From Candidatus Woesearchaeota archaeon (GTDB lineage Archaea; Nanobdellota; Nanobdellia; Woesearchaeales; UBA10216): a DNA stretch of 32,684 nt. Positions within the stretch are counted from its first letter, which is position 1; every line of letters begins with the position of its first letter. Positions 2,362-28,882 of the stretch are shown one piece after another. The stretch is taken from the NCBI GenBank assembly GCA_016192945.1, contig JACPTE010000027.1, positions 1-32,684 on the forward strand. Reading direction: 5' to 3'. Position numbers and translations under genes: made by a program. Below the pieces are notes generated by a model. The model made no database searches. It was given only the letters and a program-made list of their open reading frames with translations, and was not told the origin of the DNA.

Positions 2362-5300
2362 ATGGCAGGAGCTTATAATCCGAAGGAGATTGAGCCCGGG
2401 ATTCTCGGGTTTTGGGAGAGCAGCAGGATTTTTGAAAAGGCAGTCCAAAAGAACAAGGGGAAAAGGGTTTTCTATTTCATTGATGGCCCGCCTTACACAA
2501 GCGGTGCCATACACATAGGCCATGCCTGGAATAAGTCTCTTAAGGATTGCATTCTGAGGTACAAGCGGATGAAGGGCTTTGATGTCTGGAGCCAGCCCGG
2601 GTTTGATATGCATGGGCTTCCCATAGAGGTTGCGGTTGAGAAGAGGCTGGGCATCAGGGATAAGAGGGAGATTGTTGAAAAAGTCGGCATCAGGCAGTTT
2701 ATTGATGAATGCGAGAAATTCTCTCTTGAGCAGATGCACCCCATGATTAAGGATTTTTCCAGGCTGGGAGTCTGGATGGACTGGGCTAATCCCTACATGA
2801 GTATAAAGAATGAGTATATTGAGGGCGCGTGGTGGGCCCTGTCGCAGGCTGACAGGAACGGCTACCTTTATGAGGGCAAGAAGAGCATGACCTGGTGCCC
2901 GAGATGCGCTACAGCGCTTGCAAAGCACGAGCTTACTTACAAGAATGTGAATGACCGCTCTGTGTTTGTGAAGTTCCCTGTTACAGGCAGGGATAAGGAG
3001 TTCCTGGTTGTCTGGACAACTACACCCTGGACTCTGCCCTTCAACATGGCTGTAATGGCCCATCCTGAATTTGAGTATGTCAAGGTCAATGTTCAGGAAC
3101 TTGGTGAGGACTGGATTATTGCAAAGCCGCTTGCAAAGACTGTTATTGAGGGAATTTGCAATTTGCATTACGAAATCAGGGAGGAGTTGAAGGGGATTGA
3201 CCTTAAGGGCATGGGCTACAAGTCTCCCTTCCATGAGGAGATAGCCTTCCACATGCAGCATGGAATCAGGAATGCGTATACTGTTGTGATGAGTGCGGAG
3301 TTTGTTGACTTAAGCTCTGGCACTGGCCTTGTGCATACTGCTCCGGGCTGCGGACCTGAGGATTTTGAGATAGGCAGGAGAAATGGGCTTCCCGCCTTCA
3401 ACACTGTTGACGAGACTGGAAAGTTCACTGAGGCAGGGCCTTATGATGGCCTGTTTGCAAAGAAAGATGATGAGGCTTTCATAAAGGAGCTGGAGAAGAA
3501 GGGGCTGCTGGCTGCAGTAACTCAGGTGACTCACGAGTATGCTCACTGCTGGAGATGTGAAACTCCTGTCATTTTCAGGGCGACTGAGCAGTGGTTCCTT
3601 GCTGTTGAGAAGCTCAGGGATGAGATGCTTGAGGAGAATGGCAGGGTGAGGTGGGTTCCTGACTGGGCAGGCAGCAGGTGGTTTGATTCGTGGCTCCAGA
3701 ATCTTCAGGACTGGTGCATATCAAGGCAGAGGTTCTGGGGAATACCCCTTCCAATCTGGAGATGCACTGCCTGCTCTAAAACGAGGATTATAGGCTCAAG
3801 AAAAGAGCTTCCAGTGAAGATGGACAACCTGCACAGGCCGTGGATTGATGAGGTTTTTCTGAAGTGCAGTTGCGGCAGCGATATGAAAAGAGTGAGTGAT
3901 GTTCTTGATGTGTGGCTTGATTCAGGCGCAGCATCATGGGCACCATTGAATTATCCCTCTGAGACAGGGCTTTTTGAAGGCATGTGGCCTGCAGACTTCA
4001 TCCTTGAGGGAAAGGACCAGATTAGGGGATGGTTCAACAGCCTGATATGCCTTTCAATGGTGTCGCTGAAGAGGAACTGCTACAAGGCGGTGTATATGCA
4101 CGGGTTTGTCAATGATGCGCTTGGCAGGAAGATGTCAAAGTCTCTGAAAAACACAATCTCGCCTTACGAGGTCATAGACAGCTATGGGGCTGACACGCTG
4201 AGGTATTATTCCATTGGCGGAGCAAAGCCCGGGTTTGACCTGAACTACAATTTTGATGATATGAAGCTGAAGCACAAGAACCTCATGGTGTTCTGGAATA
4301 TCCAGAATTTCCTGCTTGAGCTTGCAGGCTCTGCAAATATTGATGGCGAAAAAGAGCTTTCAGTTGAGGAGAGATACATCCTATCCAGGCTTCACTCATC
4401 CATAAAGGGAGCCACTTACATGTTTGACAGCTATTACATTAATGAGGTTCCCTGGATTGTGGAGGATTTGCTTCTTGAGCTCAGCAGGACATACATTCAG
4501 CTCACCAGGGACAAGGCAGGTGGCAGCGAGATTGAGAGGGATACTGTCCTTCACACTGCGTTCACTGTGTTTTTTGAGTCTCTGAAGCTTATTGCCCCGA
4601 TAGCCCCATTCATTGCAGAGCAGATGTACCAGAACCTCAGGAAAGAATTTGACTTTGCTGAGGAGAGCATACACCTTTACAGCTGGCCTGATTTTGACAA
4701 GGAGATTATTGATGAGCAGCTTGAAAAGGATTTCGGGGTTGCGAAGAGCGCAATACAGGCAGTGCTTGCTGCAAGGGAGAAGGTAAAGCTGGGAATAAGA
4801 TGGCCTCTGAAGGAGGCGATAATAGTTACAAATGAGCTTCAGGGCACTGAGCTTGTTGAGTCAATCAGGAAGCAGGCGAATGTGAAGGAGGTAATAGTAA
4901 CGTCAGGATTTGATGGGGTAAAGACCTCTGTGAAGGCTGATTATGAGAAGCTTTTGCCGCAGTTCGGCCAGAAGAGGGCTACGAGCATCATAGCAGCATT
5001 GGCGCTCACATCGCCTGAGACCCTCCTGAAATACCTTGAGAGGGATGGCAAGTACTCTGTCAGCCTTGATGACGGCAAGGTAACCCTCACAATGGAGCAC
5101 ATGATTATTGCCAAGCAGCCACCGCATGGCTACGAATATGCTTTGTTTGAGCAGGGCGAGGTTTATATCAACATAATATCAACACCCGAGCTTGAGGCAG
5201 AGGGCTTTGCACGCGAGCTGATAAGGCGGGTTCAGAACATGAGAAAGGAGGCTGGCTTGAAGAAGAGCCAGTCCATAAGCCTGTGGGTAAAGTGTGGCGA

Positions 5301-7424: not shown

Positions 7425-8290
7425 CCAATAAGCTTGTAGGCCAGCTTTGCCGCAAGAAGGTCTGGAGCGTGGTTCCCGGGTATTGGCATCAGCTCTGTCA
7501 AGTCAAAGCCTACGACATTCCTTGAGCCTGCAATCCTCCTGAGGAATGCAAGCAGCTGGTACCATTCCAATCCCCCTGGCTGTGGGGTTCCCACTGACGG
7601 CATTATTGAGGGGTCAAGGGCATCCAGGTCTATTGTGACATATACATTCCTGCCCAGGTGGCTTATTGCCTGCTCCATCCATTCATCATTGCCTCTCTGG
7701 CAGATGTCCTTTGCAAAGAATGCCTTTATCCTGCCTGCATTATCCCTGATATGCTGGATTTCCTCTTCAGATATGCTTCTCACGCCCACTGAAACCAATG
7801 GGCACATCTCAGATATCCTTCTGGCAACGCAGGCGTGGTTGTGCCTGTTCCCGCTGAAGTCATCCCTCATGTCAGCGTGTGCGTCAATGTGCAGCACAGT
7901 AAGGTCAGGGTAAATCTCCAGGTGAGCCTTCACAGAGCCGCTGCTTATTGAATGCTCACCTCCTATAACCAATGCCTTTTTGCCGTCTGCGAGAATGGAC
8001 TGGACAGATTCGTAAACCCTTGCTGCGGTTTTCTCTGAATCATCAACCACCTCAAGCTCCTCAAGCGTGCATATGCCTATGCTTGAGATGTCCCTGCCCA
8101 GCTCTTCATCATAAGCCTCAAGCGAGCGCGATGCGTCTATTATGGCAAGGGGCCCGTTTCTTGTCCCCGGCTGGTATGTGGTGGTGGCATCAAAGGGGAC
8201 TGGAAGTATTGCTACCCGGGACTTTTTGTAATCAGAAAGCTCTTTTGGGAGTGCGCAGAAATTGAAGGGCATTGAAAAGTGCTGGTTCAT
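7403..8290 (-). CDS. speB: Agmatinase / ureohydrolase
   Basis: A ~295-residue arginase/agmatinase-family enzyme that hydrolyses agmatine (or aminopropylagmatine) to putrescine (or spermidine) plus urea. The binuclear manganese ligands are visible in GGEHS, HIDAHAD and DLDALDP, and the family turn PVPFDATTTYQPGTRNGP is intact. It lies 68 bp downstream of speD on the same strand, so both belong to polyamine synthesis. The frame extends to 8329, but the TATA-like box at 8312-8323 is centred 27 bp before the ATG at 8290, giving a leaderless start there. The real substrate cannot be told from sequence. Confidence 0.9.
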   Translation of the reverse strand: MNQHFSMPFNFCALPKELSDYKKSRVAILPVPFDATTTYQPGTRNGPLAIIDASRSLEAYDEELGRDISSIGICTLEELEVVDDSEKTAARVYESVQSILADGKKALVIGGEHSISSGSVKAHLEIYPDLTVLHIDAHADMRDDFSGNRHNHACVARRISEMCPLVSVGVRSISEEEIQHIRDNAGRIKAFFAKDICQRGNDEWMEQAISHLGRNVYVTIDLDALDPSIMPSVGTPQPGGLEWYQLLAFLRRIAGSRNVVGFDLTELMPIPGNHAPDLLAAKLAYKLIGYFFSRE

Positions 8291-12093: not shown

Positions 12094-13470
12094 TTACTTG
12101 TTGCTTAAGCTGGGGGCAATCCTTTTAAGAACTGCCTCATTGCCCTTCCAGTCAAGGGCCTCTTTAAGAACCTCAATTATGTTGTCAACAGGAATTATCC
12201 TGATTTTTGCTGCATCATTGCTGTCCACTATTATGTCCTTGAGGTTTGTCCTGGGCACAATTACATTCTTTATTCCTGCCTCTATTGCAGCCTCTACCTT
12301 TGATGACACCCCCCCGACTGGAAGCACTTCTCCCCTTACTGAAAGGCTTCCTGTCATTGCGTATTCCTGCTTTACAGGTATTCCCTTAAGTGCAGAGATG
12401 ATTGAGGTTGCTACTGCGATGCTTGCAGAGTCGCCCTCAACACCCTCCCCATATGTCTGGAGGAACTGGACGTAAATATCCCTGGTCTTCCTTATGTCCT
12501 CGCCGAAGTATTTCTTGATTATTGCTGACACGTTGAGTATGGCCTCCTTGGCTATTTCGCCCAGCTTCCCTGTTGCTATGATATCCTTCGCCTCGCCTCC
12601 TGGAGTGACTTCCGCCTCTATGGGCATTATCAGCCCTGAGTAGGATGTGCCGCTTCCAATCACCGCAAGTCCATTTACCCTTCCTACCTTTTTCCCTGCT
12701 GTTATTATCACTTCGTACTCTTTCCTGTGCTCTATTATCTTGTCTGCTATCTGCTGCTCAAGCGTCCTTGCAATGTTTTTAGCATTCTTGACGTGTTTCT
12801 TCTCAACAAGCTTTGCGCCCTCCTCTGCTGCGAGGTCGCCTGCCGCCCTCACAAGCCCGCCCAGCTCCCTCAAGTGCAATGTAAGGTGGCCTTTCCTGTT
12901 TGCAGCTCTTCTTGCCGCAATGATTATCTCTTCAACAGCATCCCTTGTGAAGTGGGGAATCTTCTTGTCCTTCGTAACCTCCTGCGCAACAAAGTGGGCT
13001 ATTTTTTCCCTGTTTTCATCTGTGTCAGGCATTGTTTCCTTCATGAAAACCTCGTATCCGTAGCCCCTTACCCTGGACCTGAGCGCGGGGTGCATGTTCC
13101 TTATGGTTTCTACGTTGCCTGCTGCAACCAGTATGAAGTTGCACGGCACAGGCTCTGTCCTTACCATTGCGCCTGCTGACCTTTCGCTCTGCCCTGTGAT
13201 TGAGTATTTCCCCTCCTGAAGCGCTGTGAGCAGTTCCTGCTGTGTTGATGGCTGTAGTGTTGCAACCTCGTCTATGAACAGGACGCCCATGTTTGCCTTG
13301 TGAATCATCCCGGCAACCACCCGCTCATGTGCAGGAGTTCCCAGTCCGCCTGAGTTTTTACACAGGATTCCGTTGGCTATGAGGTTCCCCGAACTTGTGG
13401 TGATGTTGTAGAGCTTTCCCTTGTAGTGTACCTCTTCCTTTTTTACGATTTTTTGTTTTTCTAGTATCAT
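12094..13470 (-). CDS. lonB: LonB protease, C-terminal part with intein C-fragment
   Basis: 458 residues. Residues 1-39 are an intein C-fragment ending GILCKN, followed by Ser40, the first C-extein residue. The rest is Lon[13 protein letters not shown], Walker [11 protein letters not shown], sensor/arginine-finger region [11 protein letters not shown], and the Lon protease domain. The catalytic dyad is Ser348 in [10 protein letters not shown] and Lys391 in [10 protein letters not shown]; the 43-residue gap equals that of known Lon enzymes. The ATG is in the same frame as the preceding gene and lies three bases past its TGA, fitting termination-reinitiation. Alone it lacks Walker A and membrane anchors, so it must be joined to the upstream product. 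Confidence 0.92.
13354..13470 (-). mobile_element. Intein C-fragment of LonB (IntC, 39 residues)
   Basis: It has the block F/G shape: [19 protein letters not shown] followed by Ser as +1 nucleophile. Asn39 would cyclise to release the C-extein. The penultimate residue is Lys instead of the usual His, and the block F His is replaced, so chemistry may be slow or altered. The length is that of a typical split-intein C-fragment. Confidence 0.85.
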
Positions 13471-13473
13471 TTT

Positions 13474-15522
13474 TCAGTTGAAATCTTCATTTAAGATATA
13501 ATAAAGCGCTTTGGGTGTTAGTTTCAGTATTCTCATTGCTGACTCGGCCCCGTAGCCTCTTGAAGTTAAATCATTGAATTTGTCTTTTTTGATCGTGGCA
13601 AACTCACTTATTGCATTATTCAATTTTATTTTTTTATGGTTGCAATAGTTCATTTTCACATTCTTGATAAAATTGACAACATTTTCGAATTTTATTGAAA
13701 TCATTAATCTGAACAGGAATAAATCCTCATTATTGGTTTTTCTCTTTATTAGCGATGTCGAATTGATGCCTTTTTCGGCAAGGTATTTTCTTATTTTATT
13801 AAAAAACAATCGCCGGTTTTCATCTAGTTTTTCTGTGCCTGTAATTGCCAAATCAAGCGTTTGTAGCCTGTTTCTTTGTTTGTGCACTTTAGGCACTCCA
13901 AGCTCGCTGCCAAAGAATGAACCGTAAAACTCATCCTGTAATGTTTCGTTCAGGCTTATCCATAACGGAATGTTTAGCTCAAGGCTGGTTTTGTTTCCTT
14001 TTGGAGCTCCCAAAGCGAGAAAAAACCTTATGATATTTCGGTTTGTGTTCTGATAGCACCAAGAATGTCCTTTTTCTCCACATTCTATAATCCTGCTGTT
14101 TAAATGAATTTCATCACCGAAAACGGTTTTCAGGTCATTTCCAAATTCCATGACTGCTTCCTTTTCCATGCTTGAAAGAAAAATGCCATTTAAGTTTTTG
14201 AAGATTCCTCCATCACCAAAGGTCGCTCCAAGAATTTTTGAGATAGTTTGTGTTCGTTTATCTTCACATTTCAACGGCAGCAGGCCTTTGTCTTTCAGCC
14301 AGCGTATTGTTTGTATGGGAACAGGAATATGCCTGCCTTGGTGCCACCATCTTGTTTTTCCTGTTTTTTGTCCCATTGATTTTGCTATTTTTTTATAGCC
14401 CCATAACGGGTTTTGTGATTTGATGTCCAAATATTGGTAATATAAGCTGCATTGTTCCTGCTGTCTGGAATCGTACGTTTTGATTATCCCTTTTTCATCA
14501 ATTATTATGTCTTCTGATTTTGTGATTACTTCCTGCCCTGTTTTTATTTTTCCTGCTTCAACGAATGACGTTTTTCCATTTTCGTTAACAGCTATTTTGT
14601 GTTCAGGTGTCACGATTAATTCCTGATTTTGGGAGGTTTTTAGTTTGATCATTTTGCCGTCATAATCTTGCTTGTTGATTGACAAAACTTCTACGGGCGA
14701 AATTTTTCCTTTTGTTTCCCCCAAAATTGTAAGTTCTTCCTTATTAAGGAATATCGCCTCATACCCTTTCTTATTCCTTATTATTTCTTTTTTGTGTTTA
14801 TATTGAATATCCATGAATATTCTTTCAAGCAGCTGAGGCTTGAAGGCACCGCCCGATTTTTTATTAACGGCTGCATAGTAAAAACATTGAAAAGGGTCAT
14901 GAAGTACATCTCCCAGCAGCGCTCCTGCGTGAGCGCCTGTGGCATCAAAGAATGGCGATTGCTTCCTGCTGTGGTTATCCACAACCACCTTTGGCGCTTT
15001 CATCCTGCCATCAGCCTTTCTGCCCAGGTTCATGAACAGTATGAATGAAGCGAAGAACAGGAGCCCTCCAAAGAAGAATGCTATGAACATCAGCCCCCCG
15101 AGCAGATAGCCCCCGATTGCAGTATAGTGATTGAATGCCCATATCGGGGCTATCAGTGTTAAAATCATTATCACAATCATTATCATGTTCTGGAACCTGA
15201 ATACGTTTGCAGATTCGTAGCGTGACTTGTTGACAAGCTCCCTGCCCTGCCCTGCCGGCAAAGTCCTTATGAATGGCTGGTTTTCATCATTGGGGTTAGG
15301 GAATGCCACTACATCAACCAGCTTTTCCTTTGGAAGGAGCTCAGCAAGTGCCATTCCAAGCATTGACTTCCCGGTTCCAGGATCTCCGATAAGCAGCACG
15401 TGCCTTCTCTGCCTGGCTGCCTTCCTGATTATCCTTACAGCATCCTCCTGCCCTATGACCTGGTCAACAATCCTCGGAGAAACCTTTAGTTCAGCGGTTG
15501 TATTGAATTTATCGCCTGCCAT
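13474..15522 (-). CDS. lonB: LonB protease, N-terminal part with intein N-fragment and homing endonuclease
   Basis: 682 residues. 1-212 are the LonB N-extein: Walker A GDPGTGKS at 46-53, two membrane helices at about 112-165 that anchor archaeal LonB, and a segment ending GALLGDVLHDPFQ. Cys213 starts the intein, which runs to a TGA stop after Asn682. The intact enzyme would be an ATP-dependent membrane protease degrading damaged and regulatory proteins. GAGG lies four bases before the ATG, and a TATA-like box is centred ~27 bp upstream. The product has no Walker B or protease domain; those are in the next gene, in the same frame. Confidence 0.92.
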   Translation of the reverse strand: MAGDKFNTTAELKVSPRIVDQVIGQEDAVRIIRKAARQRRHVLLIGDPGTGKSMLGMALAELLPKEKLVDVVAFPNPNDENQPFIRTLPAGQGRELVNKSRYESANVFRFQNMIMIVIMILTLIAPIWAFNHYTAIGGYLLGGLMFIAFFFGGLLFFASFILFMNLGRKADGRMKAPKVVVDNHSRKQSPFFDATGAHAGALLGDVLHDPFQCFYYAAVNKKSGGAFKPQLLERIFMDIQYKHKKEIIRNKKGYEAIFLNKEELTILGETKGKISPVEVLSINKQDYDGKMIKLKTSQNQELIVTPEHKIAVNENGKTSFVEAGKIKTGQEVITKSEDIIIDEKGIIKTYDSRQQEQCSLYYQYLDIKSQNPLWGYKKIAKSMGQKTGKTRWWHQGRHIPVPIQTIRWLKDKGLLPLKCEDKRTQTISKILGATFGDGGIFKNLNGIFLSSMEKEAVMEFGNDLKTVFGDEIHLNSRIIECGEKGHSWCYQNTNRNIIRFFLALGAPKGNKTSLELNIPLWISLNETLQDEFYGSFFGSELGVPKVHKQRNRLQTLDLAITGTEKLDENRRLFFNKIRKYLAEKGINSTSLIKRKTNNEDLFLFRLMISIKFENVVNFIKNVKMNYCNHKKIKLNNAISEFATIKKDKFNDLTSRGYGAESAMRILKLTPKALYYILNEDFN
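13477..14886 (-). mobile_element. Intein N-fragment with LAGLIDADG endonuclease (470 residues)
   Basis: Protein residues 213-682. Cys213 is the splicing nucleophile; block B is TPEH at 305-308. A DOD/LAGLIDADG motif, ILGATFGDGGI, is at 430-440, and a degenerate second copy, FYGSFFGSELG, at 532-542. Helix-turn-helix-like segments lie at about 373-397 and 650-676. After Cys1 the sequence is FYYAAVNKKSGG, unlike usual block A. The stretch is visibly more AT-rich than the exteins, fitting horizontal acquisition. Confidence 0.85.
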
Positions 15523-24401: not shown

Positions 24402-25157
24402 CTATGCGGCAGATGCAGCTTGCCTTCTTATCTTCAGGAGAATGAACCCTAAGGAAGCTAAAAACAGCCCTATTGCAAGGTATTGGGCTATGGTAAGGCC
24501 GTAGTATGTTGGGTCTTCCCTGTAGAACTCAACTGCAAACCTGAGAAGGCTGTATGAGGCAACATAGGCTGCGAAAACAATGCCCTCAAGCGATTTTGAC
24601 ATTTTCCTGTTGCCTAGCCATAGAAGGAATGCAAAAATTCCAATAAGCCCCAGGAATTCGTATAGTGGGGTTGCATGCCTCAGCTTGCCCTCGTACATGA
24701 CTGCCCATGGTACGCTTGTTTCCCTTCCTATATGCAGCCCGGTGGCAAAGCAGCCAATCCTTCCTATGGCGTGCCCTACAGCTATTGCCGGGGCTATCGC
24801 GTCAGCATATTTCCACAGGCTTATCTTTTTTCTCTTCACATAGGCAAGGAATGCCAGTATCCCCCCGAAAAGCCCGCCATGAAAAGCCAGCCCGCCGTTC
24901 CATACGCTTATTATGTCAAGGGGCCCGGAGACAGCCCAGGGGTTTTCAAGAAGGAAGACTATTCTTGCGCCTATCACGCTGCCTATTATAACCCAGGGGG
25001 CTGCGTCGTAAATAACCTCTTCATCCAGCTTTCTTCTTCTTGCCTCTCTCGCTGCAATCAGGATTGCTGCGAGGAACCCGAGGGCTGCAAAAATCCCCCA
25101 TACGTGCAGCTTCAGGAAGCCAATGTCAATGGTCTTGATTGTGCTGTAAGGAATCAT
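24402..25157 (-). CDS. lgt: Prolipoprotein diacylglyceryl transferase-like protein (Lgt)
   Basis: A 251-residue polytopic membrane protein of the Lgt family, which in bacteria attaches a diacylglyceryl group to the lipobox cysteine. Key motifs are present: GGLAFHGGLFGG with His93, GHAIGRIGCF with Arg133 matching the essential arginine, and RHATPLYE. The position of the acidic residue in the E. coli GELWG motif is not Glu here. It has about seven membrane segments. GGGTGAT precedes the ATG and the ZIP gene stops four bases upstream, so it is the last gene of the BlaI-to-Lgt operon. The operon also encodes a lipobox protein, a possible substrate; in archaea the lipid would presumably be an ether lipid. 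Confidence 0.88.
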   Translation of the reverse strand: MIPYSTIKTIDIGFLKLHVWGIFAALGFLAAILIAAREARRRKLDEEVIYDAAPWVIIGSVIGARIVFLLENPWAVSGPLDIISVWNGGLAFHGGLFGGILAFLAYVKRKKISLWKYADAIAPAIAVGHAIGRIGCFATGLHIGRETSVPWAVMYEGKLRHATPLYEFLGLIGIFAFLLWLGNRKMSKSLEGIVFAAYVASYSLLRFAVEFYREDPTYYGLTIAQYLAIGLFLASLGFILLKIRRQAASAA

Positions 25158-25161
25158 ATTA

Positions 25162-25893
25162 TCACCCTACTGCTGCCCTGACTGCCCAGATGACAACTAT
25201 TCCGAGCAGGAAAACGGCAAGCTGGATTGAGGATGCCTTTGTATCGTGCTCTTTGTTCAGCTCAGGCAGGAGGTCTCCTACTGCTATGTAAATGAATCCG
25301 CCTGCTGCAAACCCGATAAGGAAGTTATTGATGCCCTGCAGGTGTGAGAAGAAAAAGAATGTCAGCAGGGCCCCTGCCATGGCTGTCAGCCCTGTGACGA
25401 AGTTTAGCATAGCTGCCTTGAAGCGCCCCATGCCGCTGTGAAGGAGTATCCCTGCATCCCCCAATTCCTGCGGTATCTCATGCATCACAATTGCTATGGT
25501 GGCTGCTATGCCTAATTGTATGTTCACCAGGAAGCTGGCCGCTATTATGGAGCCGTCTATGAAATTGTGTATTGCGTCTCCTACTGTAACCAGGTAGACC
25601 AGCGAGACTGCCTGGCTTTTGTTCTTGTGGTTTATGTGATGGTGGTGCCAGATTAGCCTTTCCATAAGGAAAAAGGCCACCACACCGAGGAGCGCAAACA
25701 CTGGAGCGTTTCTTCCTTTCTCAAGGGCCTCAGGGAACAGGTCAAGAAAGGCGGCTGCAAGCATTGAGCCTGCTGCAAAGCTTACGAAAAAGAACAGCTT
25801 TTTCTCCCCTGCCTTCATGAAGTAAATCGCCACAAATGCAATGGAGCTTACAAGAAATACAGAAACAATGATATACGCCAGGATGGGCAGCAC
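25162..25893 (-). CDS. ZIP family metal transporter
   Basis: A 243-residue membrane protein of the ZIP (zinc/iron permease) family with about eight helices. Metal-site motifs in helices four and five are HNFIDG and HEIPQELGD; a cytoplasmic HHHHINHKNK loop is a further metal-binding segment. ZIP proteins import zinc, iron or manganese into the cytoplasm. The start is GTG, with GGGGAGG eight bases upstream. It sits 14 bp after the small membrane gene and four bp before lgt, in a tight operon. Confidence 0.9.
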   Translation of the reverse strand: MLPILAYIIVSVFLVSSIAFVAIYFMKAGEKKLFFFVSFAAGSMLAAAFLDLFPEALEKGRNAPVFALLGVVAFFLMERLIWHHHHINHKNKSQAVSLVYLVTVGDAIHNFIDGSIIAASFLVNIQLGIAATIAIVMHEIPQELGDAGILLHSGMGRFKAAMLNFVTGLTAMAGALLTFFFFSHLQGINNFLIGFAAGGFIYIAVGDLLPELNKEHDTKASSIQLAVFLLGIVVIWAVRAAVG

Positions 25894-25907
25894 TAAAACA
25901 ACCTCCC

Positions 25908-26105
25908 CTACTCAAACCTTCCCTTTACCTTGTGCTTGTCAGAATTCATTATCCTGTCAATCTCCTGCTCATAATCGCTCTTTGCAGGCTTTAAGTTCCT
26001 GGCAATTATGTACGCCACATATAAGGCCAGCACAATGGCTCCCAAAACCATGTATGTCCTGTTTTCAATGATGTTTTCAAGCAATTTGAACACCTTGCAT
26101 TTCAA
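25908..26105 (-). CDS. Small membrane protein, 65 residues
   Basis: One membrane helix (YMVLGAIVLALYVAYIIA, about 18-35) is preceded by a short amphipathic N terminus and followed by a charged cytoplasmic tail. No family recognised. The frame starts with TTG at 26105; a GTG at 26093 is possible. It sits between the CcdA-like and ZIP genes with 19- and 14-bp gaps, all on one strand, so it is probably part of the same operon and may be a partner of one of these membrane proteins. That is inference from position only. Confidence 0.55.
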   Translation of the reverse strand: MKCKVFKLLENIIENRTYMVLGAIVLALYVAYIIARNLKPAKSDYEQEIDRIMNSDKHKVKGRFE

Positions 26106-26124
26106 TCAGGATTTTGAATGATAA

Positions 26125-27252
26125 TTAATATATAATGTTTGCCCTTTTCAGCAGGAATTTCCACACGAGGGCTGCGAACAGGATGAGCATGGCAGCCCCT
26201 ATTATGTTGAATAGCTGCGTATTCTGCAGGAGCAGCCTGTCAAAATCCTCGGCAAACCCCACAGTGGTTATTACGTAATGTGAGTCTATGTAGCTGAATG
26301 CGGCAACCGAGAGCATAAGCAGGGCTGCAAATGCAATGTGCCTTGCATTGCTGCCTGTGAAAACCCTTGTTATGGCTGCTTTGTATACAAGGTATGCTGC
26401 AAGGAGAATTATTGAAAACACTATCAGCCTTCCGAACAGGTCTGCTGTTGTAAGCACAGTTGTTCCCTTGTAGGCTATGAACAGCACTCCAAGCCCGATG
26501 AGCATGAGCCCTGAGATGGCTGTTGTGGTGTGTATAATAAACTCGTGGCCGAGCATTCTGAAATTGAACTGCTTTCCCCTTATTAGCCTGTTTTCAGCAA
26601 GGTTGTATGTGTCAAATGCGAACGCCATGACAAACAGCGGGATTGCAATCCCAAGCGAGTAGAAGAACAGAAGGAGCGCTGCAGACGTGTAGTCATTGAA
26701 CGAGGCTGCTATTGAAAGTATGCCCGAAATCACAGGGCCTGAGCATGCGCTCCAGCCGACTGCGAAGAGCATGCCGAAAAGGAAGGTTCCTGGAAAGTCA
26801 TGCCTTGGCTTAATCCCGAAGTTCAGGAATGTGAATCCCTTGCCCAGAAAGGTCATTATCCCAAAAAATACGAGGATGAGCCCTATCACCTGAATTACGA
26901 GTGAGGAGTCGTTCTGGAAGTAGACGAATGATACTTTCCCAAGGTATGCTATAAGCAGCCCGAGGGCTATGAATGATGCTGAGAACCCAAGGAAGAATAT
27001 GCCTGTCATCTTAGCTATCTCCCTCTTCTCCTTGAAGGTGTATGCTATGAATGACGGCAGGACTGCAACTGTGCACGGCGAGAATATGCTGAGAATCCCT
27101 GCCAGGAACGCGATTATGAAAGATACATTCCTGAGGCTTGTCACAGCGTTAAGCGATGCAACGCCATTCATGCTGTATACATAAACGAAAATCCCTGCTA
27201 TGAAGACAATGAACAGGGAAAAAAAAAGAAGGAACAGGCTCTTTGGTTTCAT
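26125..27252 (-). CDS. CcdA/DsbD-type thiol-redox membrane protein
   Basis: About 375 residues, with nine or more membrane segments. The first ~240 residues match CcdA/DsbD transmembrane domains that carry reducing equivalents across the membrane: SIFSPCTVAVLP and GWSACSGPVISGIL hold the paired redox cysteines (Cys60 and Cys170). The C-terminal ~130 residues add several helices not in minimal CcdA. In bacteria CcdA reduces apocytochrome or copper-site thiols. Here it directly follows a CuA-type cupredoxin, whose two-cysteine site needs reduced thiols. A GTG at 27258 is possible; the ATG at 27252 is preceded by GGGTGA. Confidence 0.78.
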   Translation of the reverse strand: MKPKSLFLLFFSLFIVFIAGIFVYVYSMNGVASLNAVTSLRNVSFIIAFLAGILSIFSPCTVAVLPSFIAYTFKEKREIAKMTGIFFLGFSASFIALGLLIAYLGKVSFVYFQNDSSLVIQVIGLILVFFGIMTFLGKGFTFLNFGIKPRHDFPGTFLFGMLFAVGWSACSGPVISGILSIAASFNDYTSAALLLFFYSLGIAIPLFVMAFAFDTYNLAENRLIRGKQFNFRMLGHEFIIHTTTAISGLMLIGLGVLFIAYKGTTVLTTADLFGRLIVFSIILLAAYLVYKAAITRVFTGSNARHIAFAALLMLSVAAFSYIDSHYVITTVGFAEDFDRLLLQNTQLFNIIGAAMLILFAALVWKFLLKRANIIY

Positions 27253-27254
27253 GT

Positions 27255-27656
27255 TCACCCTTTGACAATAATGCTTGCCTTCATGTTAGGATGGCCATCG
27301 CCGCAATACACTGAGCAGTAAGCCTTGAAGGTGCCTGCCTTGTCTGCTGTGAACTCAACAAGGACAGTCCTTTTCGGGCTCAGGTGAACGTCAATATTGT
27401 ATTCAGGAAGGTTAAACCCGTGGTTTACATCAGAGCTTGTAATGAAGAGCCTTACCTTTTCCCCCTTGTTGACAACTATCTCGCTCGGGTTAAAGCCCCA
27501 CTGGAATGCACTCATGTTTATATCCTTCACAACCGGGGGCGCCTGAACTTCATTGACAGGGGGCAGCACAACCGTCTGTGGAGGTTTGCTGGCGCAGCCT
27601 GCTGCAATTAGTGCAATGCCCAAAGTTAAGATAACTGCTATTGCTAATGCCCTCAT
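27255..27656 (-). CDS. CuA-type cupredoxin lipoprotein
   Basis: 133 residues. The N terminus is a lipoprotein signal peptide with lipobox IAAGC (Cys21). After a proline-rich linker comes a cupredoxin domain with full CuA ligands: His79 in DVNHGF, then Cys114, Cys118, His122 and Met125 in YCSVYCGDGHPNM. This spacing matches subunit II of cytochrome oxidase and nitrous oxide reductase, but no oxidase is in the window. It may be an anchored electron carrier or copper chaperone. The start overlaps the M56 gene in ATGA, and the CcdA-like gene follows at once. Confidence 0.85.
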   Translation of the reverse strand: MRALAIAVILTLGIALIAAGCASKPPQTVVLPPVNEVQAPPVVKDINMSAFQWGFNPSEIVVNKGEKVRLFITSSDVNHGFNLPEYNIDVHLSPKRTVLVEFTADKAGTFKAYCSVYCGDGHPNMKASIIVKG

Positions 27657-28426
27657 TTTACCCCTCCCTTTAATATATTTTCAAAATAGGAATACTCATC
27701 AACGCTTGCCTTTGCAGAATCAATGTAGCTCCTGGTTCCCTGCCTTCTGGCTGCAAACTCGTCAGCCATTGCCTCCTCTTCTGAAAGCTCGTGCCTGAAC
27801 GAAGTGAAAAGGGAAACCGGGCTGAACAGCCTTGCAAAGAAGGCTGAGAATTTAACAAATGGCGCTCCCCTCTTTATGTGCATGAGTTCATGAAGCAGCA
27901 CTGCCTCAGATTCCCTCCTCTTGAGAAGGTCAAGCAGGCCTACAGAAAGGAAGATTGCAGGCCTTATGCTTGAAAACGAGAATGCCACAGGCCTTGACTG
28001 GTCAACAAGGTAGACTGCTGGGGGCTTTATTCCCATCCTCTCAGCCTCGCTGCTTACAAATCCTGCGAGATGCCTGTCCTCAAGCGGCCTTGCAGAGAAT
28101 GACTTGCTGTACACGAAAAGCACAGGTGCTGCAAGGGAGCCTATGATAGCTGAAAGCATTCCTGTAATTCCCAGCAGGTAAAGCGTCGGCATCAGGCTGC
28201 TGCAGCCTGAAAAAAGTGCCTTGCACCCATTGAAGAACAGGTAGTACACAAACGGGAACAGGATGGCAAACACATTGACATATACCAAAAGCACCCTCAT
28301 GTTGAGGGGGGTGCTTTTCCTGAGCATCATAAACAGGCTGGCTGCTGCAACAGCAACAGATGCCAGCACAATGCCTATCATCAGGGGGTCATTGAAAAAT
28401 GAAAATGCGCACTCATTGCATACCAT
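27653..28426 (-). CDS. M56/BlaR1-like membrane metallopeptidase
   Basis: 257 residues, with about three hydrophobic N-terminal helices, then a cytoplasmic-type peptidase domain. Zinc motif HELMH is at 179-183 and a downstream Glu ligand lies in EEEAMADEFAA near 217-223, as in M56 (BlaR1/MecR1) and M48 peptidases. It has no penicillin-binding sensor domain. In bacteria the M56 partner cleaves or inactivates the BlaI-type repressor. Here the repressor gene is directly upstream (10 bp), so the pair could work the same way. AAGGTG precedes the ATG; it overlaps the cupredoxin gene by 4 bp. Confidence 0.85.
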   Translation of the reverse strand: MVCNECAFSFFNDPLMIGIVLASVAVAAASLFMMLRKSTPLNMRVLLVYVNVFAILFPFVYYLFFNGCKALFSGCSSLMPTLYLLGITGMLSAIIGSLAAPVLFVYSKSFSARPLEDRHLAGFVSSEAERMGIKPPAVYLVDQSRPVAFSFSSIRPAIFLSVGLLDLLKRRESEAVLLHELMHIKRGAPFVKFSAFFARLFSPVSLFTSFRHELSEEEAMADEFAARRQGTRSYIDSAKASVDEYSYFENILKGGVK

Positions 28427-28436
28427 AATGGCACCT

Positions 28437-28793
28437 TTATTTCTTGAATCGCTCGTTAAAATAGCTGACAGCAGTAACCCCGAACCTGTCTATCAGCCCG
28501 TTAACAGTTGTTTCAACTATGGACTTTTCAAACTGCTTCCTGTCCTTGAGGGGGAAGTAGACATATCTTATGCCGCCCCTGCCTGTTTCAACATCCCTGC
28601 CCACAACGCCCTTCTGGTGCAGGCGGTCAAGAATCACTGCTATGCTGCTGAGGGCAACATTCCTGCCTGGCTTGAGCTGCTCATAGATGTTCCTGACCCT
28701 CATCTTCCTGTCAGGCCACAGCACCTTTATCACATCAGTCTCAAGCGGGCTCAGGACTGACTCAAAGCCAGAATTAAACTTTATTGACTTCAT
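28437..28793 (-). CDS. BlaI/MecI/CopY-type repressor
   Basis: 118 residues. Winged-helix signatures of the family include LSPLETDVIKVLW, VRNIYEQL, SSIAVILDRLHQKGVVGRD and the wing GGIRYVYFPL. The C terminus is a helical dimerisation region. Family members repress beta-lactamase or copper genes until a partner peptidase or metal relieves them. It heads an operon with an M56 peptidase and copper-type redox genes, so metal or redox sensing is likely by inference. A TTG at 28811 is in frame, but the TATA box at 28814-28826 overlaps it; the ATG at 28793 fits leaderless start. Confidence 0.85.
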   Translation of the reverse strand: MKSIKFNSGFESVLSPLETDVIKVLWPDRKMRVRNIYEQLKPGRNVALSSIAVILDRLHQKGVVGRDVETGRGGIRYVYFPLKDRKQFEKSIVETTVNGLIDRFGVTAVSYFNERFKK

Positions 28794-28813
28794 ATCCTGC
28801 CTAACACCCAACT

Positions 28814-28826
28814 ACTATAAATAGTT
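28814..28826 (-). promoter_or_regulatory. TATA-like box (and possible operator) of the BlaI-to-Lgt operon
   Basis: The minus strand reads AACTATTTATAGT, centred ~26 bp before the ATG at 28793. It is nearly palindromic (ACTATTTATAGT). A BlaI dimer could bind here and block the TATA box, which would give autoregulation; that part is inference. Confidence 0.5.
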
Positions 28827-28882
28827 TACGCCGGCTGTAACTGTTTGTTCGGGTAGCTTGCAGCTTTTGCTGCTTTTCAGAA

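Follow-up and report, generated by a model that had tools for sequence, protein, structure and literature searches.

A seven-gene operon on the minus strand of a Woesearchaeota genome probably forms one arm of an extracytoplasmic thiol-reducing regulon, switched by a BlaI-type repressor and an M56 membrane protease, that would also mature or use a lipoprotein with a CuA copper domain. The operon lies at 24402-28793 of the window, by which we mean the whole 32,684-nucleotide stretch that was analysed (contig JACPTE010000027.1 of assembly GCA_016192945.1, Candidatus Woesearchaeota archaeon); this is contig 13 of a 1.07-Mb genome, 92% complete, that we label G000. Other G and L labels denote the relatives' genomes and loci compared, which come from an order sample of 145 genomes in at least 88 families, a family set of 19 genomes and a phylum set of 193 genomes. 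We regard thiol reduction as the likely “job” of the system, and BlaI very probably controls both of its arms (the CuA–CcdA operon of the window and a second operon, encoding a protein that ends in MVGGC and a triple thioredoxin) because the predicted operator precedes both in G000, on different contigs.

All seven open reading frames (ORFs) are intact, in the order BlaI–M56–CuA–CcdA–65-amino-acid transmembrane (TM) protein–ZIP–Lgt, with gaps from BlaI to Lgt of 10, -4, -4, 19, 14 and 4 bp, and every one except the 65-amino-acid gene is matched in Pfam above cut-off (6/7). The co-transcription proposed in an earlier note on this DNA, made from the sequence alone, is supported by the intact ORFs and their close spacing (-4 to 19 bp), and the gene set it listed stands, but the upstream end of the unit has to be moved out to an operator and TATA box at 28816-28841. 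The predicted operator, GTTACAGCCGGCGTAAA (28825-28841, minus strand), and the TATA box, TATTTATA (28816-28823), lie 22 nt 5' of the BlaI ATG in the layout TTTACA-N5-CGTAAA-N-TATTTATA, the window's half-site GTTACA carrying one mismatch, so that the pair has a palindrome at its own promoter as BlaI-M56 pairs do. The same operator and TATA box stand upstream of BlaI in G001, G003, G004 and G005 and in G084, which belongs to another family, and the combined pattern has a single match in G000, that of the window. The bare palindrome TTTAC-N7-GTAAA occurs exactly 20 times in 787 kb of loci from the order, against 0.9 expected from Markov simulation, and 15 of these sites adjoin BlaI or an MVGGC gene; in the window's own genome an exact copy lies at 3776-3792 of contig 25, 28 bp before the MVGGC gene. 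Another exact site (L217:3773, in G059) is away from both BlaI and MVGGC genes and may mark an extra member of the regulon.

The gene cluster found beside BlaI-M56 across the order comprises the MVGGC protein, a thioredoxin with three CxxC motifs, small one-TM peptides that end in MVGGC, CcdA and, often, CuA; an MVGGC or triple-thioredoxin gene lies near BlaI-M56 at 17 of 24 loci. The MVGGC protein (about 230 amino acids, one TM) has the pattern CE[FY]CC…CGCxH…MVGGC-stop, and exactly this C-terminus is common to two types of membrane protein, of about 230 and about 70 amino acids. The codon pattern for MVGGC-stop occurs 30 times, spread over 16 of the 19 genomes of the family, against no occurrence in the reversed control; all the places inspected fall within these clusters. 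Each of the 27 full-length triple thioredoxins has exactly three CxxC motifs. In G000 the second arm, on contig 25, includes the MVGGC gene (L247:3820-4521) and a small MVGGC peptide (4568-4774) as well as the triple-thioredoxin gene, and the gene ahead of it is presumably a PEP (phosphoenolpyruvate) carboxylase. No confident match to the MVGGC protein was found in Pfam, NCBIfam or the PDB; a CcmH-like identity, suggested by an SDxEI...FFP stretch, was dropped when neither a PDB profile search nor scanning 29 members against Pfam produced a convincing match. The literature searched returned only unrelated papers for the MVGGC tail, and the BlaI/M56–CcdA–triple thioredoxin–MVGGC context appears to be undescribed there. 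Contig 35 of G000 carries a second, more divergent CE[FY]CC protein (L248:8013-8666) with its own small MVGGC peptide (7638-7934) and no adjacent CcdA or triple thioredoxin. Small lipoproteins with a conserved GGGCGV also occur in the clusters (L136:6367-6588, L137:11112-11315, L142:12483-12707, L144:6535-6765, L217:13710-13982, L218:11458-11670 and L219:8085-8312).

The earlier note had made recurrence of the gene set in relatives a test of its reading, and the set does recur: the operon is kept in five genomes of the same family, G000 included. G004 has BlaI-M56-CuA-CcdA and then, beyond an inserted restriction-methylase gene, the small gene and Lgt, while in G003 the operon is spread over two contigs, one with M56-CuA-CcdA and the other with MVGGC, triple thioredoxin, operator and BlaI-M56. 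G001 carries BlaI-M56-CcdA-small gene-ZIP-Lgt with no CuA, and G005 has the same order, again with no CuA, plus an inserted 405-amino-acid gene that we take to be glutamate dehydrogenase-like. Because these two operons do without it, CuA is an optional gene, and BlaI, M56 and CcdA are the constant ones; the BlaI-M56-CcdA association is also found in other families of the order.

The repressor (28437-28793, 118 amino acids) is a winged-helix protein of the BlaI/MecI/CopY type (Pfam Penicillinase_R, 9.4e-14), and the gene it adjoins encodes an M56 membrane metalloprotease (27653-28426, 257 amino acids, Pfam Peptidase_M56 4.9e-9) with its HExxH motif, HELMH, at residue 179. This protease has no added extracytoplasmic sensor domain, and in particular no penicillin-binding one: the protein stops soon after the protease domain, and M56/M48 families alone are matched in Pfam above cut-off. 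It holds just four cysteines, C3 and C6 (CxxC) and C68 and C75 (C-x6-C), all of which are predicted from hydrophobicity and the positive-inside rule to be extracytoplasmic. Both motifs are present in M56 at 15 loci of the cluster type, the window included; the loop pair alone is kept in G017, G174 and G059, and in G017 and G174 the loop is rich in methionine and cysteine (CLMPVMSC, CMMPMMNC). Divergent M56 proteins away from the cluster mostly lack both pairs. These cysteines are therefore a candidate thiol or metal sensor, and the signal read by BlaI/M56 is likely the state of thiols or metal.

The CuA lipoprotein (27255-27656, 133 amino acids, Pfam COX2 2.3e-10) has the lipobox AAGC (C21) and aligns with Thermus thermophilus CuA (PDB 2lln/2cua, 7e-16) at the ligands H79, C114, C118, H122 and M125; all five, in the pattern H...CxxxCxxxHxxM, are invariant in 17/17 relatives. 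CcdA (26125-27258, 377 amino acids) is a CcdA/DsbD-type transmembrane thiol-electron carrier (Pfam DsbD_TM 1.8e-12; PDB CcdA 5vkv, 8e-14) with the paired membrane cysteines of such carriers, C62 in SPC62 and C172 in AC172SGP. The association of CuA with CcdA that the earlier note had seen in one genome holds across the order, where a CcdA-type gene is found no more than 5 kb from 18 of the 62 strong CuA hits (0.67 expected), and in G095 a single 489-amino-acid ORF (L150:6525-7994) fuses a triple thioredoxin to a CuA domain. It is known that CuA takes up copper only with its ligands as thiols and that apo-subunit II is reduced by TlpA, with reductant moved outward by CcdA (PMC9145763); since CuA needs thiol ligands and TlpA/CcdA supply the reductant, we apply the logic of that relay here, and the chances that CuA is a client or an electron carrier of the thiol system seem to us about even.

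If this is how the regulon works, BlaI dimers on TTTACA-N5-CGTAAA, which overlaps the region of the TATA box and TFB-recognition element (BRE), would hold the operon off and in parallel silence the separate MVGGC/triple-thioredoxin operon through the same operator. M56 would read the exterior through its CxxC and C-x6-C cysteines, either as thiol/disulfide state or as bound metal, and once triggered its cytosolic HExxH domain would cut BlaI. The induced CcdA would then move electrons from cytosolic thioredoxin outward, and the triple-CxxC membrane thioredoxin, in the role of TlpA, would hand them to its cysteine clients, which we take to be the MVGGC protein with its CE[FY]CC...CGCxH pattern, the small peptides with the same tail, and CuA, whose cysteines would have to be thiols before copper binds. 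Lgt and LspA would anchor CuA and other lipoproteins, and ZIP would supply metal. Repressor binding, BlaI cleavage, the signal, electron flow and copper loading are all steps that we infer. More tentatively, the two operons may be a new archaeal extracytoplasmic redox system, in which the MVGGC tail of otherwise dissimilar membrane proteins would work as a movable arm whose cysteine CcdA and the triple thioredoxin keep reduced, electrons or copper would be exchanged with the CuA lipoprotein, and the cysteine-sensing M56 would be the switch.

Several points weigh against this interpretation. It is drawn from gene content, synteny, the operator and the conservation of ligands and cysteines. The 24 BlaI-M56 loci are a biased sample, some having entered via searches for CcdA or CuA. 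In G000 the MVGGC and triple-thioredoxin genes are on another contig, so that for this genome the case for a joint function depends on the operator they share. The cysteine signature is missing from the BlaI-paired M56 of G108, G177 and G042 (outside the cluster) and its spacing is altered in the cluster-linked M56 of G117, and the quality of a single-sequence AlphaFold model of M56 was too low for these residues to be located (predicted local distance difference test score, pLDDT, 48.5).

The earlier note's copper-centred reading of the operon is partly right, and copper enters two of the explanations to be weighed against a thiol-reducing regulon. In one, the operon serves copper homeostasis: BlaI/M56 would be a CopY-like copper sensor, CuA would buffer or oxidise surface Cu(I), ZIP and CcdA would tune metal and thiols, and thiol redox would be secondary. 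CuA is indeed a copper site, the best NCBIfam match of BlaI is CopY_TcrY (weak and, like the match to BlaI itself, below cut-off), and the Met/Cys-rich M56 loops of G017 and G174 fit as well; yet BlaI contains no cysteine at all and hence lacks CopY's CxCxxxxCxC, the operon has neither a copper ATPase nor CopZ, it is thioredoxins and CcdA that recur as partners, and the persistence of BlaI-M56-CcdA without CuA in G001 and G005 weakens a copper-only module, so that we think this explanation unlikely. The other, which was the earlier note's own, is a self-contained module to build, anchor and regulate a surface CuA protein. The tightness of the operon, the proximity of CuA and CcdA across the order and the need for reduced cysteines in CuA assembly (PMC9145763) speak for it, but the comparison weakens it, as two relatives keep the operon without CuA, the regulated set extends through the same operator to the MVGGC/triple-thioredoxin operon, and Lgt is the general enzyme of the genome; we now consider it improbable.

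Two further explanations are much less credible still. CuA could be the half through which electrons enter a nitrous-oxide reductase that is split in two, an idea put forward for NosZ-like proteins of DPANN archaea from oxygen-deficient zones. DPANN archaea are already known to have CuA proteins, which a study of those zones annotated as NosZ-like (PMC10936187), and the best NCBIfam match of the window's CuA covers residues 377-479 of 480, the CuA end of a lactonase-type NosZ model; however, matches in the 19 genomes are confined to CuA-region positions, with none to the propeller/CuZ part in G000 or its 18 relatives, and a Pseudomonas nosZ mutant complemented with DPANN NosZ-like genes showed no significant N2O (nitrous oxide) consumption (PMC10936187), which leaves this very improbable. 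An oxidase remnant was rejected because COX1 is found above cut-off in none of the 145 genomes of the order, G000 included, and the earlier note's absence of an evident respiratory chain stands to the extent that no oxidase gene was detected in G000, COX1 and the NosZ propeller being the parts tested. It is equally hard to credit that independent housekeeping genes are simply packed behind one promoter in a small genome, with no joint function: both ZIP and Lgt are generic genes, and relatives carry an inserted restriction-methylase or (presumably) glutamate dehydrogenase-like gene, but BlaI-M56-CcdA recurs in further families of the order, a second operon carries the same operator, and the triple thioredoxin-CuA fusion exists.

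The thiol-reducing regulon resembles several known systems in part. As in BlaR1-BlaI and MecR1-MecI, a BlaI-family repressor and an M56 protease are encoded together and a TACA/TGTA-type palindrome lies at the repressor's own promoter; unlike them, the M56 of the operon has four predicted outer-face cysteines in place of a penicillin sensor, the promoter is an archaeal TATA promoter and the target genes are thiol-redox genes. The CcdA/DsbD-TlpA/ResA relay of Bradyrhizobium and Bacillus likewise joins CcdA and a membrane thioredoxin to a CuA that needs reduced cysteines, whereas here the thioredoxin has three domains, MVGGC proteins are added, BlaI is in control and no oxidase gene was detected (Sco/PCuAC were not searched). 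By sequence and by its full ligand set CuA belongs to the cupredoxin family of the CuA domains of cytochrome c oxidase subunit II and NosZ, but it is a stand-alone lipoprotein for which no subunit I or propeller partner was found. A possible lead is the sulfur carrier SoxYZ, served by SoxV/SoxW, in which a Gly-Gly-Cys tail near the C-terminus is kept reduced by a CcdA-thioredoxin pair; the MVGGC protein ends exactly in MVGGC, where the SoxYZ arm is GGCGG. The published DPANN NosZ-like proteins share with ours a CuA domain in archaea that have no respiratory partners, but lie mostly beside acyl carrier protein genes, and a BlaI/M56/CcdA/MVGGC context was not described for them (PMC10936187).

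Of the remaining genes of the operon, the 65-amino-acid single-TM protein (25908-26105) has a conserved tail, DRI(M/L)xSDKxKVKGxFE, with syntenic homologues in G001, G004 and G005 and others near the MVGGC/thioredoxin cluster in G010, G012 and G013. The ZIP metal transporter (25162-25893, 243 amino acids, HNFIDG and HEIPQEL, Pfam Zip 4.2e-40) is syntenic in G001 and G005. Lgt, the prolipoprotein diacylglyceryl transferase (24402-25157, 251 amino acids, Pfam LGT 6.6e-58, TIGR00544 136 bits against a cut-off of 118.9), retains the FHGG, GRIG and FYREDP motifs with the catalytic His/Arg of its family. It is the single copy detected in G000, Lgt is present in 160 of the 193 phylum genomes, and LspA is encoded elsewhere (on contig 12 of G000, and in 17 of the 19 family genomes); on these grounds a CuA-specific Lgt was rejected, and the enzyme presumably serves the whole cell. 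Archaeal lipids are ethers, while the Lgt of the phylum is of bacterial type, and the literature searched yielded no paper on this enzyme from DPANN archaea. Elsewhere in the window are what we take to be eL21 and Rpb4 genes, which together with the small genome and the number of families in the order point to a DPANN archaeon, probably one of the Woesearchaeales. At 12094-15522 on the minus strand there is also a LonB-type protease gene with an apparent intein between DPFQ and SGGLGTP, broken within the intein into ORFs at 13474-15522 and 12094-13470 (perhaps a naturally split intein).

The Lgt/LspA pathway is thus documented as the norm among these archaea. The CuA proteins of oxidase-less DPANN archaea, which have been puzzling, would now have a place beside thiol carriers in a definite regulon. 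This regulon supplies a testable operator and sensor, and it draws attention to protein families that share a striking tail and are as yet unmodelled in Pfam and NCBIfam.

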